A model generated the notes under the pieces. The model did no database searches and had not been told where the DNA came from. It saw only the letters and a list, made by a program, of their open reading frames with translations. From positions 1 to 34,809 of the forward strand of contig JAGGWE010000068.1 in the NCBI GenBank assembly GCA_021157665.1: a stretch of DNA of 34,809 bases, in the 5' to 3' direction. The translations under genes were made by a program, and so were the position numbers. The DNA comes from Sulfurimonas sp. (lineage in GTDB: Bacteria > Campylobacterota > Campylobacteria > Campylobacterales > Sulfurimonadaceae). Below, one piece after another: positions 2,200 to 31,414 of this stretch (position 1 is its first letter; each line of letters opens with the position of its first letter).

Positions 2200-3484
2200 C
2201 AGTTAAAATAGTTCTGCCTATCGCAGTTATCTTAACATCTCTAAATTGACCAAGAAGTTCCTCTGAGCCTTTAACTTTTACAACAATATTGTTATCACTT
2301 CTACCAGCTGCATGTCCATCACTGTGTAAATCTTCAAAATAAACTCTATAAGTATTACCAAGAAGTTTAGCGTTGTTCTTATCCATAATCTCATTATGAA
2401 GTGATTGTAGAAAAGTAAGTCTGCTAGAAGCCAACTCTTCATCTACTACATTTTTAAAATATTGTGCTTCAGTTTCAGGACGAGGAGAATATTTAAAAGA
2501 AAAAATCTGATCAAACTCAACTGTTTTCATGACATCTAAAGTATCTTCAAAATCTTCATCACTCTCACCAGGAAAACCCACAATAATATCTGTACTAATT
2601 GTAGCTTCTGGACACATAGTTTTAAGTTTATTAACTCTATTTAAAAACCACTCTTTTGAGTAACCTCTTTTCATATCTTTTAAAACTTTTGTGCTTCCAC
2701 TTTGTAATGGCATGTGCATAGATTTACATATTTTAGGGTTAGATGAAAACTCTTCAATAAACTCATCATCCATATGAAAAGGGTGTGGTGAAGTAAATCT
2801 GATTCTCTCTAGTTCTTCAATTTTAGAGAGTCTTCTTAAAAGTTCTGTAAAATTAACATCTTCATGCTCACCAGAAAAACGGCGACCATAATTATTAACA
2901 TTTTGTCCTAAAAGAAAAATCTCTTTTGCTCCAATACTAACCAATCTTTTAGCTTCATTTATAATCAAAGCATCAGGGATAGAGATCTCATCACCACGAG
3001 TTTTTGGAACTATACAATAGGTACAAGATTTATCACAACCCATTGAAATATTTATAAATCCTTTAAAAGGAGATGAACGAAAATCTTTAAAAGCAAATTC
3101 ACTATCATCATAGTTTATATCTATCTCAACTGCCTTATCTTTATGTATAATTTCACTAATTTTAGATACATTTCTTGCACCTAAAACGAAATTTACATAA
3201 GGGGCTCTTTTTATTATCTCTTTACCTAAATGTGAAGCAGTACAACCACAAACACCTATCTTGGCATGTGGCTTTTTATGTTTGTTAAATCCACCAAGTT
3301 CAGAAAAAAGCTTATGCACTGGTCTCTCTCTAACTGAACAAGTATTTATCAAAATCAAATCAGCAACTTTGAAATCATTAGTCATAACAAAGCCCTCTTT
3401 CTCAGTTAACTCAGCAATCATATGCTCAGTATCACGAGAGTTCATAGCACAACCAAGTGTTTCGATAAATAGCAATTTAGACAA
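2183..3484 (-). CDS. miaB: tRNA-2-methylthio-N6-dimethylallyladenosine synthase MiaB
   Basis: [25 protein letters not shown], radical-SAM CxxxCxxC ([16 protein letters not shown]), [11 protein letters not shown]-terminal TRAM region. Confidence 0.95.
3261..3273 (+). repeat. Dispersed motif copy, 11/13
   Basis: TTGGCATGTGGCT inside miaB (PHAK on the gene strand). Confidence 0.75.
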
Positions 3485-6971: not shown

Positions 6972-8168
6972 CTATTCTTCTATGATTAGAGGTGCTACAC
7001 CTGGTAGTATTTTACCCTCTAAAAGCTCTAGTGATGCTCCACCACCAGTTGAGATAAAACTCATCTCTTCATCAAGTCCGATTCTTTGAACTAAGTCAGC
7101 AGTATCACCACCACCTACAACAGTTGTTGCATAAGAATCTGCTACAAAGTGAGCTATTTTAGATGAACCACGAGCAAATTTTTCCATCTCATAAACACCC
7201 ATAGGTCCATTCCATAGAATTGTTTGAACATCATTTAAACCCTCACGATAAAGTCTAACAGTTGCAGGACCAATATCAAGACCCATCCAGTTATCTGGAA
7301 TCTCTTGAGCAGTTACAATCTTACTAACAGCATCAGCAGCAAACTTCTCAGCAGCTATAACATCCACTGGCAAATAAAACTTAACACCAAGTTTTTTAGC
7401 TTCATCCATAACATTTTGAGCATCTTGAAGTAAATCATCTTCAACTAAAGATGCACCAATGTTATATCCCATCTGTTTTAAAAATGTAAAAGCCATCCCT
7501 CCACCGATAAAAATTTTATCAACTCTTGGAAGTAGATTTGTTAAAGCTTCTAGTTTTCCTGAAACTTTTGAACCACCAATAATCGCTGCAAAAGGGCGAG
7601 TTGGCTTTTTCATAAGTTTACCAAAAAACTGTATCTCTTTTTGAAGAAGAAAGCCAGCAGCTTTATGATTAATATCAAAAAACTCAGTTACTCCAGCAAC
7701 TGAAGAGTGAGCACGATGACAAACACCGAAAGCATCATTAATATAAATATCAACCATATCAGCTAATTTTTTAGACAACTCTATGTCATTTTTAGTTTCA
7801 CCAGCTTCATAACGAAGATTTTCTAAAAGTAAAACTTCAGTTGGTTTAAGTGCTGCTGCTTTTGCAACTGCATCATCACCAACAACATCTTTAGCTAAAA
7901 TTATTTCTCTTTTTAAAAGTTGATGAAGTCTTCTTGCCACTGGCATAAGTGAGTACTTTTCATTTACTTCACCATTAGGACGACCCAAATGTGAAGCTAA
8001 AATAATCGAACAATCTTGATCTAAACAAAAGTTTATAGTTGCAATAGCTGAACGAATTCTTCTATCATCAGAGATATTTCCAAACTCATCCATAGGTACA
8101 TTAAAATCACATCTTATAAAAACTTTTTTATTTTGTAAATCTAGTTTTTTTATATTTAAAAGTTCCAC
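6972..8168 (-). CDS. pgk: Phosphoglycerate kinase
   Basis: [62 protein letters not shown] start at 8166-8168. Confidence 0.95.
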
Positions 8169-8175
8169 ATGCCAA
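8163..8175 (-). repeat. Dispersed motif, 13/13, at the gap/pgk junction
   Basis: TTCCACATGCCAA; overlaps the pgk GTG start codon. Confidence 0.9.
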
Positions 8176-11580: not shown

Positions 11581-12991
11581 TTTCTTTTTTCTCCGCAATC
11601 TCTTCAATATTATTTTCTAAAATATCTCTATAATCATAAATTGATTCTACATATTTTACAGGTTCTTCACCCCTTGCATATCCATATTTTAATGTTCTAT
11701 AATATTTTTTCTTAGAAAGAAGTGGTAAAACTTGCTTTAAATCACTCCATATATCTGGATTATATCCAAGTCTTACAGCTAATTTTCTAGCATCATTAAG
11801 ATGCCCCATCCCAACATTATATGCAGCTAATGCAAATTTCAAACGATTCTCACCATCTATCTCTTGTGGTACAAACTTTATCATCTGTTTAAGATGTCTT
11901 GTACCACCAACAATACTCTGTTTTGGGTCAAGACGATTTTTAACACCTAAAATTTTTGCTGTAGTTTTTGTAAGCATCATCATACCTCTAACCCCAGTAA
12001 AACTTTTGGCATGTGGATTCCAATGTGATTCTTGATAAGATATGGCTGCTAAAAGTTCCCAAGGGATAGAATATCTCTCTCCTGCATTAATAAAAATCTT
12101 TTTATATTTTGGTAGCCTTGTTTCAATTCTTTTATAAAACATTTTATTATCATAATAATCAAAGAAATGGATATTGCTATAATAATGATCTTTTAATTCT
12201 GCCATTTTTCCTCTTTGATTAAAATCATTTAACCAAGAGTACATATCAGCTTCTAATTCATCTGCACCTTTTGGTAGAACCCATGCTAATTGCTCTCTTT
12301 CACTTATAGTAAATGCTAAATGCATCTCAGGATAGTATCGCAAATTTAGTGCATATATATTTGAATCAGCAATAGTGCAATCTATTTTATGTGAAGCAAC
12401 CTGTTCTAAAAGTTCTTCTGTTGAATCACTGCTAAAAGTGGCATTAATATCAAAACCATCTTTAATTAATGAACGAATAGTATCGCTATAACTTGTTCCT
12501 TCACCAACTTTTAAATTTAACCCAACTAAACTTTCAACATCTCTTGGAAACTTTTTACTTTTTATCATACTACGATTACATATAACCTGCTCTTGTACTT
12601 CAAAGTATGATGGTCCAAAATTAAACTCTTTTTCCCGTTTAGCAGTTTTAGTAAGTGAAGCAGATGTAATATGAATAGTTGAATCTTTACCTAATTCTAT
12701 AGCATCTTTAACAGTATTAGCCGTTACTATTTTAAGTTTAACATCTAAGGAGTCTGCGTAGGCTTTTAAAAGGTCATACTCAAAACCTTGCGCTCCATTT
12801 GCCCCTATATAGTAAGTAGAAGGTGCATTTAGTAAAACAACTTTTAACTCTTTATCTTTTTTTATTTTATCTAAAACTGACAACTGCTTTATCTTATGAA
12901 TAGGTGAGTATGCTGAATGAGACAACCATCCAAACATAAAAAAAGAGAGAGCAAAGAAAATTAAAAGAAAAGGCTTTTTATACTGTTCCAT
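11567..12991 (-). CDS. MltF-like membrane-bound lytic transglycosylase (SBP_bac_3 plus SLT domains)
   Basis: N-terminal TM, periplasmic solute-binding-like domain, SLT motifs ([43 protein letters not shown]). Confidence 0.88.
12006..12018 (+). repeat. Dispersed motif, 12/13
   Basis: TTGGCATGTGGAT inside the mltF-like gene (NPHAKS). Confidence 0.85.
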
Positions 12992-14621: not shown

Positions 14622-15284
14622 TTATTTAAGAAGTTTGTAACCAACACCTCTAACAGATTCTATAAGTGTTTTATCACCAAGTTTATTTCTAATTCTACCA
14701 ACCATAACATCTATACTTTTGTTTGATGAATCTTCATTTATAGCATTTACATTATGGATTAAATCTTCTCTTGAAACAACTAAACCTTGCTTTGAAATCA
14801 TGTATGAAAGTATTCCAAACTCTGCATTTGTTAAATCAATATTTCTACTTTTATATGAGATAATCATAGTTGAATTATCACATTTAAAATCACTTTTAGA
14901 TTCCTCTTTTGCCTCTGTTCTAGCTTCATATCTTCTTAAAACTGAATGAATCCTAGCTTCTAGTTCTCGTGGATCATATGGTTTTGGCATATAATCATCA
15001 GCACCAAGTTCAAGAGCTCTAACTTTATCAGTAACATCACTTCTTGCTGATGAGATAATAATAGGAATATCCTGACGCTCACGAATTGCTTCACAAACTT
15101 CTAAACCATCCATCCCCGGAAGGGTAAGATCTAATATGACTAAATCAAATGGTTCTAGTTTTAATATACTAACAGCTTTAAATGGATCATCTTCTGTAAT
15201 CACTTCAAACTCAAACTGTTCTAAATACTCAGTAAGTATTTCAGCTAACTCTAAATCATCTTCAATCATTAATATTTTTTTCAT
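14622..15284 (-). CDS. OmpR-family response regulator (ArsR-like)
   Basis: Receiver domain (IEDDLELAEILTEYL, DLVILDLTLPGMDG, ARSDVTDKVRALELGADDYMPKPYDPRELEARI) plus winged helix. Confidence 0.92.
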   Translation of the reverse strand: MKKILMIEDDLELAEILTEYLEQFEFEVITEDDPFKAVSILKLEPFDLVILDLTLPGMDGLEVCEAIRERQDIPIIISSARSDVTDKVRALELGADDYMPKPYDPRELEARIHSVLRRYEARTEAKEESKSDFKCDNSTMIISYKSRNIDLTNAEFGILSYMISKQGLVVSREDLIHNVNAINEDSSNKSIDVMVGRIRNKLGDKTLIESVRGVGYKLLK

Positions 15285-19836: not shown

Positions 19837-21086
19837 TATTCTACCTCACTTTCGATTGAAAGAGTTTTTTTAGGTTTTACACCAAGAGCCACTATATTTT
19901 CTGCTCTTTTTATAATGTTACCTCGTCCAGTTTTTAATCTATTCATAGATATATCGAAAGAGTCTTGTGCTTTTTGAATATGTGAACCAACTTTTTTCAT
20001 CTCATCCACAAAGCCAACCAATTTTTCATACATTGCTTCAGCTTCAGAAGCAATTTTCAGTGCATGGTCTTCTTGTCGTTGTGTTCTCCAAATATGCTCT
20101 ATCGTTCTTAGTGTTACAAGTAAAGTTGATGGGGAAACTACTAAAATATTGTTATCATATGCCTTTTTAAAGAACTCCCCATCCTCTCCAAGTGCTAAGT
20201 GAAATGCACCCTCTATCGGCATAAATAAAAGAACATAATCAAGAGTATTAATCCCCTCTAATTTCTCATAATTTTTAGCACTTAACTCTTTAACATGCCC
20301 AGATATACTTTGCAGATGTTCTTTAAGTGCAATAGACTTAGCATGTGGGTTCTCTTCGCTCATAAACCTTTCATAAGCAACAAGCGAAACCTTAGAATCG
20401 ATAACTATATCTCTTTTTTGTGGCATGTGGATAATTACATCAGGTCTATAAGTTTTACCCTCATCTGATTTCAAAGTAGCTTGTGTTTGATACTCAATCC
20501 CTTCTCTTAAACCTGATTCTTCTAAAATTCTTTCTAAAACTATCTCACCCCAATTTCCCTGAGTTTTATTTTCACCCTTTAGAGCATTTGTAAGGTTTAG
20601 TGCATCAGTAGAGAGTTGTGCATTCATCTCTTTTAAACGAAGTAGTTCATCTTTAAGTAGATGTCCATCTTTCGCACTTAGATTAAACTGCTCTTTTGAT
20701 TGTGTCGAGAAATTTGTTATCTGTTCACGAAATGGTTTTAACAAAATTTCAAACTGTTCTTTTTGAATATGAGAAAACTGTTTTGATTTATCTTCAAAGA
20801 TTTGATTTGCTAAAAGTTTAAACTCTTTACTTAACTCATCTTTTGCAGATCTAAGTACAGCTAGTTTTTCATTTGAAGATTTTATCTCCTCTTCATAACG
20901 AGTATTTAAAACAGCGTATTTAAGTTGCAAATCATTTTTTTCTTTTGTCATCTCCACATGCCAAGAATCTAACTCCTTGTTTTTTTCTAAAGCTAAACGC
21001 AACAAATCTTTTTGTTTTAAATATAAAACAGTTAAAAAAACAAAAAAACAAAAAACAACGATAAAAAGCATCATATATACATCCAT
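19836..21086 (-). CDS. rmuC: DNA recombination protein RmuC
   Basis: N-terminal TM and coiled coil, RmuC core TQGNWGEIVLERILEESGLREGIEYQTQ, RPDVIIHMPQKRDIVIDSKVSLVAYERF. Confidence 0.92.
   Translation of the reverse strand: MDVYMMLFIVVFCFFVFLTVLYLKQKDLLRLALEKNKELDSWHVEMTKEKNDLQLKYAVLNTRYEEEIKSSNEKLAVLRSAKDELSKEFKLLANQIFEDKSKQFSHIQKEQFEILLKPFREQITNFSTQSKEQFNLSAKDGHLLKDELLRLKEMNAQLSTDALNLTNALKGENKTQGNWGEIVLERILEESGLREGIEYQTQATLKSDEGKTYRPDVIIHMPQKRDIVIDSKVSLVAYERFMSEENPHAKSIALKEHLQSISGHVKELSAKNYEKLEGINTLDYVLLFMPIEGAFHLALGEDGEFFKKAYDNNILVVSPSTLLVTLRTIEHIWRTQRQEDHALKIASEAEAMYEKLVGFVDEMKKVGSHIQKAQDSFDISMNRLKTGRGNIIKRAENIVALGVKPKKTLSIESEVE
20420..20432 (+). repeat. Dispersed motif, 11/13
   Basis: GTGGCATGTGGAT inside rmuC. 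Confidence 0.7.
20952..20964 (-). repeat. Dispersed motif, 12/13
   Basis: CTCCACATGCCAA inside rmuC (SWHVEM). Confidence 0.85.
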
Positions 21087-23426: not shown

Positions 23427-23488
23427 TTAAGGGGAAGATGCTTTAGCCGTGTATTTGGCATGTGAGCAGACTTGTATCATCTCCTTAA
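23427..23488 (+). promoter_or_regulatory. Candidate structured 5' leader of the DEAD-box helicase gene
   Basis: TTAAGGGGAAGATG can pair with CATCTCCTTAA; internal short pairings GCT/AGC and GCC/GGC. Confidence 0.35.
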
Positions 23489-23500
23489 TTTTAAAGGATT

Positions 23501-25069
23501 ATGATGCAAGAAAATGCACAAGAAAACTCTTCAACAGAAGAAAAAACAATCACATTTGATGACTTAGGTTTAAAAAACGACATGCTTAGAAGCGTAAAAT
23601 TCGCTGGTTTTGTAACTCCAAGTCCTATTCAAGAAAAAGCTATTCCATTTATTTTAGATGGTCGTGACATTGTTGGTCAAGCACATACTGGTACAGGAAA
23701 AACAGCTGCTTTTGCTCTTCCAGCACTAAACAACATGAAAATGAATGGCTCTGTTGAGATGTTAGTTATAACACCAACAAGAGAACTAGCTACTCAAGTT
23801 TCTGATGAAATCTTCAAATACGGTAGAAATATAGGTGCTAAAACAGTAACCGTTTATGGTGGTAGTTCGTACAGCCGTCAACTTGATTTAATCAATCGTG
23901 GTGCATCTGTAGTAGTTGCAACTCCTGGTCGTTTACTAGACATTTTAAAAAGAGGAATGTTAAAAAACTTTGCTCCGAGTATAGTTGTTCTTGATGAAGC
24001 TGATGAGATGCTAGATATGGGATTTTTAGATGATATTAATGAGATATTTTCATTTTTACCAACTAAGCGTCAAACACTACTTTTCTCAGCTACAATGCCT
24101 CAACCTATCAAAACTCTAGCTTCTAGAATTTTAGAAAACCCAGAGTTTATCTCTATCACTAAGGGTGAAACAACTAACTCTGATATTGAGCAACTTTACT
24201 ATGTTATCGAAGAATCTGAAAGAGATGATGCAATTATTCGTCTTATGGATTCAGAAGAGACTAAAAAATGTGTTGTTTTTTGTAGAACAAAATCTGAAGT
24301 AGATAGACTTTCAAATGTTCTTTCTAACGCTGGTTATTTAGCAAATGGTCTTCATGGAGACATGGAGCAAAGACAAAGAGAAACTGTTATTAAAGGGTTT
24401 AAAGCTAACTCTGTAAAAGTTCTTGTTGCAACTGATGTTGCTGCTCGTGGTATCCATGTAAATAATATCTCACATGTATTTAACTACCATATCCCATTTG
24501 ACCCAGAATCTTATGTTCACCGTATTGGTAGAACTGGTCGTGCTGGAACCAAGGGTAAGGCTATTACACTTTTAACTCCATTAGAGTTTAAAGAGCTTCA
24601 ACGCATTAAAAATAAAGTTGGAACTTCAATGGGTCATGCTTTCATCCCAAGTAAAAATGATTTAAGAAGTTCAACTATTGATTCACTTGTTAAAAAAGTT
24701 GAAGAGCATAAAATCTACGATGAAGCACACAAAGTTTTAGATAAACTTCGTGAAGATATAGATGAGGAGCAAATGGCTTACAAACTTATCTCTATGCTAC
24801 TAGATCAACAAGATATTAAAGGACCAAATACTATTGGTATCCCTGCTGATAGACTTGACGCTGTTCTTGCTCGTGCTGCACAGCGTGGTGGTGGAAATAG
24901 TAGAGGTAGAGGAAGAAGTAGAAGTGGTGGAAGTAGTAATTACAAAGGGAACCGTGATAAAAACCGTTCAGGTGGAGGCGGTACTTACCGTGGAAACCGT
25001 GAAGGTGGAAGTAGAGACGGTGGCGGTTACCGTGGAAATCGTTCTAACTCAAACAGACATAGAGACTAA
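23501..25069 (+). CDS. DEAD-box RNA helicase with Gly/Arg-rich C-terminal tail
   Basis: Motifs AHTGTGKTAAFALP, PTRELATQV, VLDEADEMLDMGF, SATMPQ, HRIGRTGRAG; RGG-like tail from about 24880. Confidence 0.95.
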   Translation: MMQENAQENSSTEEKTITFDDLGLKNDMLRSVKFAGFVTPSPIQEKAIPFILDGRDIVGQAHTGTGKTAAFALPALNNMKMNGSVEMLVITPTRELATQVSDEIFKYGRNIGAKTVTVYGGSSYSRQLDLINRGASVVVATPGRLLDILKRGMLKNFAPSIVVLDEADEMLDMGFLDDINEIFSFLPTKRQTLLFSATMPQPIKTLASRILENPEFISITKGETTNSDIEQLYYVIEESERDDAIIRLMDSEETKKCVVFCRTKSEVDRLSNVLSNAGYLANGLHGDMEQRQRETVIKGFKANSVKVLVATDVAARGIHVNNISHVFNYHIPFDPESYVHRIGRTGRAGTKGKAITLLTPLEFKELQRIKNKVGTSMGHAFIPSKNDLRSSTIDSLVKKVEEHKIYDEAHKVLDKLREDIDEEQMAYKLISMLLDQQDIKGPNTIGIPADRLDAVLARAAQRGGGNSRGRGRSRSGGSSNYKGNRDKNRSGGGGTYRGNREGGSRDGGGYRGNRSNSNRHRD

Positions 25070-25084
25070 TCTTCAAATAACTTA

Positions 25085-25111
25085 TTGGCATGTGGAATTC
25101 TCATATGCCAA
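25085..25111. terminator. Inverted pair of the dispersed motif forming a hairpin after the DEAD-box helicase gene
   Basis: TTGGCATGTGG-AATTC-TCATATGCCAA; 11-bp stem with two G-U pairs, 15 nt after the stop at 25069. No strong T-tract, so terminator function is unproven. Confidence 0.65.
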
Positions 25112-25162
25112 CTTCTTTAAACTTCAAAAAAATTCGATATAATTGTCAAAAAAGAGATACTT

Positions 25163-25534
25163 ATGATAATTTATGAAGATAATGAAATATACATTGAAAA
25201 AGAGCAAAGCGAAATACCTTGGTTAAAAATATTTACGAAAGAACCATATAAAGAGTTGGGTGATGTTCCAAAGAAGTTACGCACAAAACTTTGGGAAGTA
25301 TATGATTTAATAGAATATGAGATGAAAGATTACTATAATCCAAAAAAAATAAATATGGCATCATTCGCAAATATGCTTCCAAGAGTTCATATTCATGTAA
25401 TGGCAAGATTTGAAAATGATAATTATTTTCCAGAGCCTATGTGGGGTAAAAAAATGAGAGATAGTGATTTAACTCTTCCTAATGAGAAAGAGTTTCATAA
25501 AAATATTAAAAAAGCTTTAAAAGAATTATTTTAA
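25163..25534 (+). CDS. HIT-family protein
   Basis: HIT-like core [28 protein letters not shown]. Confidence 0.75.
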
Positions 25535-31012: not shown

Positions 31013-31414
31013 ATGATTAATTATACAAATATTTTAAGACAACATAATTTAAAGGCTACTCCCCAAAGATTGGCTATTACAGACATACTACATGTGCAAG
31101 GTCACATAACTATTGAAAGCTTATATGAGGTGATGGTAAAAAAGTTTAGCTCAATCTCACTTGCTACTATATATAAGAACATTAACCTAATGTTAGAAAA
31201 TTCTTTTATCCAAGAAGTAAAAATTCCACATGCCAAATCAGTTTATGAAATTACTAAAGAATCTCATTCCCACTTGGCATGTGAAAAATGTGGAGAGATT
31301 CAAGATATTATTATTGATTTAGATAATATACTAAATGAAGTTGCAAAAACAAACACTTTTAAAGTAAATTCTAGCGATTTAGTTTTATCTGGAATATGTA
31401 AAAACTGCCAATAA
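31013..31414 (+). CDS. perR: Fur-family regulator, PerR-like
   Basis: LKATPQRLAITDIL, SLATIYKNINLMLENSFI, SHLACEKCGEIQD. Track ORF starts at a GTG at 30998; ATG at 31013 is more plausible. Confidence 0.82.
   Translation: MINYTNILRQHNLKATPQRLAITDILHVQGHITIESLYEVMVKKFSSISLATIYKNINLMLENSFIQEVKIPHAKSVYEITKESHSHLACEKCGEIQDIIIDLDNILNEVAKTNTFKVNSSDLVLSGICKNCQ
31224..31236 (-). repeat. Dispersed motif, 13/13
   Basis: TTCCACATGCCAA inside perR (IPHAKS). Confidence 0.9.
31274..31286 (+). repeat. Dispersed motif, 12/13, opposed to 31224-31236
   Basis: TTGGCATGTGAAA inside perR. Confidence 0.75.

Follow-up and report, generated by a model that had tools for sequence, protein, structure and literature searches.

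According to PMC12616744, the Neisseriaceae and Pasteurellaceae are the only families in which DNA uptake words are known, and their presence in terminator hairpins is documented for those families (PMC1852404, PMC2397512); in the Pasteurellaceae, 17-29% of terminators contain the uptake sequence USS (PMC1852404). For the phylum Campylobacterota, our literature search found no uptake sequence reported: no paper joined "uptake sequence," "Campylobacterota," and "natural competence," none joined "DNA uptake sequence" with Sulfurimonas, and none among the matches listed was relevant to the word described below. Campylobacter jejuni, a member of the same phylum, discriminates self DNA through methylation of a common motif; this system would serve the same end as an uptake sequence and involves no enriched word.

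Here we analyze a 34,809-nucleotide stretch of DNA (the window) from a genome of Sulfurimonas (Campylobacterota), in which the end of a helicase gene is followed by a hairpin whose arms are inverted copies of a word dispersed through the genome. The initial annotation likened this arrangement to the inverted uptake sequence pairs that act as terminators in Neisseria and Haemophilus, and the existence of such pairs is borne out by published work (PMC1852404, PMC2397512). Like the Neisseriaceae DUS (PMC2397512, PMC1852404), the Sulfurimonas word is 10 to 12 nt long, occurs in hundreds of copies and in both orientations, has flanks that differ between genomes in a dialect-like manner, and in copy-rich relatives forms inverted pairs at gene ends. 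Unlike the DUS, it belongs to another phylum, its copies are mostly coding, and its pairs contribute no T-tail. It resembles the Pasteurellaceae USS in having a short core with an AT-rich extended flank and in placing the smaller part of its copies in hairpins at gene ends, but differs from it in being known here from sequence alone. The core, GGCATGTG, is unrelated to either family's sequence, containing neither the DUS GCCGTCTGAA nor the USS AAGTGCGGT (PMC12616744, PMC1852404), and falls outside their dialects, a difference that bears on belonging to those two families but not on acting as they do.

The hairpin at the end of the helicase gene

Positions 25085-25111 of the window read TTGGCATGTGG-AATTC-TCATATGCCAA on the plus strand, with coordinates and letters exact when checked against the sequence. 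The left arm (25085-25095, plus strand) is a perfect copy of TTGGCATGTGG, the loop AATTC occupies 25096-25100 (plus strand), and the right arm (25101-25111, minus strand) is a diverged inverted copy, TCATATGCCAA, which differs from the perfect CCACATGCCAA by C-to-T changes at 25101 and 25104. Both changes give G-U pairs in plus-strand RNA, and the stem comprises 11 pairs, two of them G-U. The plus-strand fold has an energy of -13.8 kcal/mol (z, -5.3), a stability equaled by 0 of 200 shuffles, whereas the minus-strand fold is weaker (-10.5) because the G-U pairs turn into A-C mismatches there. The hairpin starts 15 nt past the TAA stop codon (25067-25069) of a gene encoding a CshA-like DEAD-box RNA helicase (23501-25069, plus strand). 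The pairing of a perfect with a diverged copy, the retention of G-U pairing, and the distance from the helicase stop codon had all been claimed by the initial annotation and are confirmed.

A local scan for terminator-like sites returned a single site, at 25085-25111, against 0.2 expected. As in Rho-independent terminators, the stem contains GC pairs, is stable, and lies shortly 3' of a stop codon; its 11-bp length, the 5-nt loop, and the likely promoter of the next gene add to the resemblance. That gene encodes a HIT-domain protein (25163-25534, plus strand) and is preceded by TATAAT (25138-25143, plus strand), a likely -10 element that recurs at the equivalent place in many relatives. Unlike typical intrinsic terminators, the hairpin has a weak U-tract: the tail CTTCTTTAAA (25112-25121, plus strand) contains 5 T in 8 nt. 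Its C-rich, G-poor surroundings also depart from that class and suggest a possible contribution from Rho. Intrinsic (Rho-independent) termination may occur at the hairpin but is unproven because the tail is weakly U-rich.

The dispersed word and its genomic setting

The hairpin arm is a copy of a dispersed, orientation-neutral word with the core GGCATGTG within (Y)TTGGCATGTGGAAAT. The window contains 18 copies of the core (0.33 expected) and 16 matches to the word with at most one mismatch (0.22 expected). Other perfect copies of TTGGCATGTGG lie at 3261-3271 and 12006-12016 on the plus strand and at 1018-1028, 8165-8175, 20954-20964, and 31226-31236 on the minus strand; a core copy at 23457-23464 (plus strand) sits in the gap upstream of the helicase gene, and core copies at 31227 (minus strand) and 31276 (plus strand) are arranged divergently with 41 nt between them. 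A different motif, AAGAGGG/CCCTCTT, is moderately overrepresented on both strands of the window (15 versus 2.3 expected), and CCTCTTTT is also high in a related genome, G012.

Across the window's own genome (G000), TTGGCATGTGG occurs 323 times and the reversed control 0 times, and in a 298-kb sample of this genome the core occurs 176 times against 2.7 expected. Orientation is random, with counts for the two orientations of 85/91, 39/38, and 67/72 in the sampled stretches. An apparent strand bias in two relatives (G062 and G063) reflected which matches were listed; their full sequence shows random orientation. Conservation extends over about 16 bp, approximately YTYGGCATGTGRRWT in G000 and TTTGGCATGTGGAAAT in G062. 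Spacing more even than random was looked for and is absent; copies are instead more clumped.

With genes called simply as long open reading frames, about 90% of the copies in the 298-kb sample lie within predicted genes (78-82% in G062 and G063), where they show frame preferences. Intergenic copies are enriched 1.5- to 3-fold and avoid divergent gaps: among 62 intergenic copies in the samples, 19 lie between convergent genes but 4 between divergent ones, where promoters are placed. In two 200-kb stretches that were sampled, the word is absent over the greatest distance at the S10-spc ribosomal operon and at the tuf-nusG-rpl-rpoBC operon (L074 2665-12830; L058 15048 to L059 8590); in these two cases the word is missing where coding constraint is highest, an exclusion characteristic of uptake sequences.

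Dispersal in both orientations, extended flanks, restriction to a lineage, and absence from the most constrained operons are the behavior expected of an uptake sequence. The evidence is anatomical, and from it we infer that (Y)TTGGCATGTGGAAAT most likely functions in natural transformation as a DNA uptake sequence. The uptake sequence word proposed in the initial annotation is supported by its abundance and random orientation, but most copies lie inside genes.

Abundant 8-mers are also used by several protein systems, and the word, with its presumed uptake role, could instead be the binding site of a chromosome-organizing or recombination protein (Chi, KOPS, or nucleoid type). We consider this improbable: orientation is random within 200-kb stretches, without the strand bias of polar Chi or KOPS sites; conserved operons lack the word while many other genes carry it; inverted pairs lie at gene ends; and G052, a near sister, has a single copy, which an essential chromosome function would not easily allow.

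Some relatives carry minisatellite-like tandem arrays of the word with a 16- to 18-nt period (G063:C18:43139-43416, G062:C13:5-97, G062:C37:2059-2151, and G078:C119:2739-2842). Such arrays would be in keeping with derivation of the word from part of a REP-like or other small mobile repeat, an origin that we regard as very improbable given that conservation ends within about 16 bp with no longer conserved unit around the copies and that most of these are located within genes and show frame preferences.

G000 encodes an intact ComEC (426 amino acids) and a secretin, as would be in line with an uptake role for the word. ComEC and secretins are also found in word-poor Sulfurimonas, and competence genes therefore do not account for which genomes have the word. 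In G090, which has few copies, ComEC is split into parts about 8 kb apart (G090:C15:23346-24113 and 14716-15249; L271 and L279), which suggests an insertion, and no ComEC match was found in G133 (99% complete, few copies); both cases fit an uptake role for the word. Because the sister genome G127 has few copies yet an intact ComEC, loss of ComEC is not the whole cause of low copy number.

Inverted pairs and a probable RNA 3'-end element in relatives

We counted pairs of exact cores separated by 0 to 30 nt. Random placement would give as many inverted pairs (both kinds summed) as direct pairs, and the latter served as the control; the opposite inverted orientation was dropped from this role because it also forms hairpins. 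Inverted pairs exceed direct pairs 2- to 5-fold in seven copy-rich relatives: G062 (66/33, with 21 of the direct pairs in tandem arrays), G063 (104/51), G089 (116/38), G086 (73/18), G056 (58/24), G075 (61/19), and G076 (53/10). The two kinds are near parity in G078 (19/17) and G108 (13/11). We examined 26 convergent hairpins in G062: 23 lie between genes, and the majority start 8 to 30 nt past a stop codon. In G000 itself there are 17 exact inverted pairs (5 convergent and 12 divergent) versus 15 direct, with about 10 inverted pairs expected from the sampled density; allowing up to two mismatches gives a mild excess, 16 inverted versus 6 direct, with some pairs counted twice. The genome-wide search for inverted pairs near gene ends that the initial annotation had proposed thus succeeds in the copy-rich relatives, just after stop codons, but finds no comparable excess of exact pairs in the window's own genome.

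We compared the helicase junction in 68 distinct relatives that have the helicase upstream and a spacer of 30 nt or more. In 63 of them the junction contains a hairpin of -8 kcal/mol or lower, at a median of 16 nt past the stop codon. The stems vary by lineage, and many are unrelated in sequence; copy-poor clades carry CCCGAAA..TTTCGGG, and AACCCGAAA..TTTCGGGTT is common to the junctions of seven word-poor genomes (G131, G021, G128, G005, G055, G058, and G012). The junction hairpin is built from the word in G000, G062, G086, G056, G078, and G087, while an altered word with pairing retained is found in G090, G127, G133, G057, G035, and G052. An example of a compensated stem, from G090, is GATATGTGGAAATTTCCACATATC. 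We considered GATATGTG as a dialect of the word in G090 and G133 and rejected it; GATATGTG is not enriched there and is therefore a compensated relic at the junction.

Across 12 related stems, 93% of cells pair, and two-sided changes occur in 8 of 11 pairs versus 2.9 in shuffles (reached in 0 of 500). These stems were picked by eye for resemblance to the word and hand-trimmed to 11 + 11 nt, so that the test leans towards a stem; the covariation supports retained pairing among the chosen stems and is not an unbiased screen.

Because the stem lies right past the stop codon, its position and pairing are conserved, and the gene that follows is preceded by a likely promoter, the best reading of the hairpin is as an RNA 3'-end element that has been conserved and that this lineage has built from the uptake-sequence-like word. 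It would act at the end of the helicase transcript as a terminator, an exonuclease barrier, or both, and would separate that transcript from the HIT gene, which would be expressed from its own promoter just downstream.

The relatives also bear on how the 3' end may form. The 8 nt after the junction stems contain a mean of 2.7 T across relatives, which is not above background, and word pairs do not supply a T-tail. Outside the stems, C makes up 30% of the relatives' junction spacers and G makes up 4%, unlike ordinary tandem gaps, where C is about equal to G; this C-rich, G-poor stretch (25070-25160 in the window, and the relatives' junctions) is possibly a Rho-loading site. Together with the average absence of a U-tract, this composition makes it conceivable, as a sub-case overlapping the 3'-end role, that termination is Rho dependent within the spacer and that the hairpin is a barrier to 3' exonuclease trimming. 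We hold this only tentatively; canonical stems followed by a U-run do occur in a few relatives (e.g., TTTCGGGTTTTTT in G012), which argues against it. The terminator-type hairpin of the initial description is supported by its conserved position and compensatory changes, but its tail is not a strong U-tract, and Rho-independent termination there would be conjectural.

Alternatively, the hairpin could be an ordinary conserved terminator that matches the word by coincidence, with the word itself serving some unrelated role. Most relatives indeed have a junction hairpin with unrelated stems, such as the CCCGAAA type, and exact inverted pairs in the window's own genome are close to chance. However, the junction hairpin is word-built in five further genomes as well, with several clades represented, and the relatives' word pairs cluster past stop codons; we judge coincidence to be quite unlikely. 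The reading that we prefer, and consider likely, is that the helicase 3'-end hairpin consists of inverted uptake-type words; in this Sulfurimonas lineage its stem would be two inverted copies of (Y)TTGGCATGTGGAAAT, with termination as the presumed function of the hairpin and recognition during uptake as that of the word.

Distribution and possible origin of the word

The word is unevenly distributed in the genus. Eighteen of 135 Sulfurimonas genomes have 33 to 769 copies, one has 18, and the others have 0 to 10 (mostly 0 to 5); in a sample of 398 genomes from the phylum, two copies of the 12-mer are the most that any genus besides Sulfurimonas has. In a phylogeny built from the helicase and HIT proteins, word-rich genomes fall in several clades, which implies losses or repeated gains, with the proviso that a single-locus tree may mislead if these genes recombine. 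G052, with its single copy, is a near sister of G000 and G078.

We lean towards a history in which Sulfurimonas has a third, independently evolved uptake sequence system, the first in the Campylobacterota. The system would have been widespread early and repeatedly lost, and in lineages that lost it the hairpins that it seeded would have been kept through compensatory changes as fossils of earlier uptake specificity. If so, comparison within an environmental genus in which near sisters differ in the presence of the word could test how uptake specificity arises, spreads, and disappears, and would aid in finding the receptor. The helicase junction also illustrates how uptake-like words may be co-opted as RNA elements that persist after their original role has ended.
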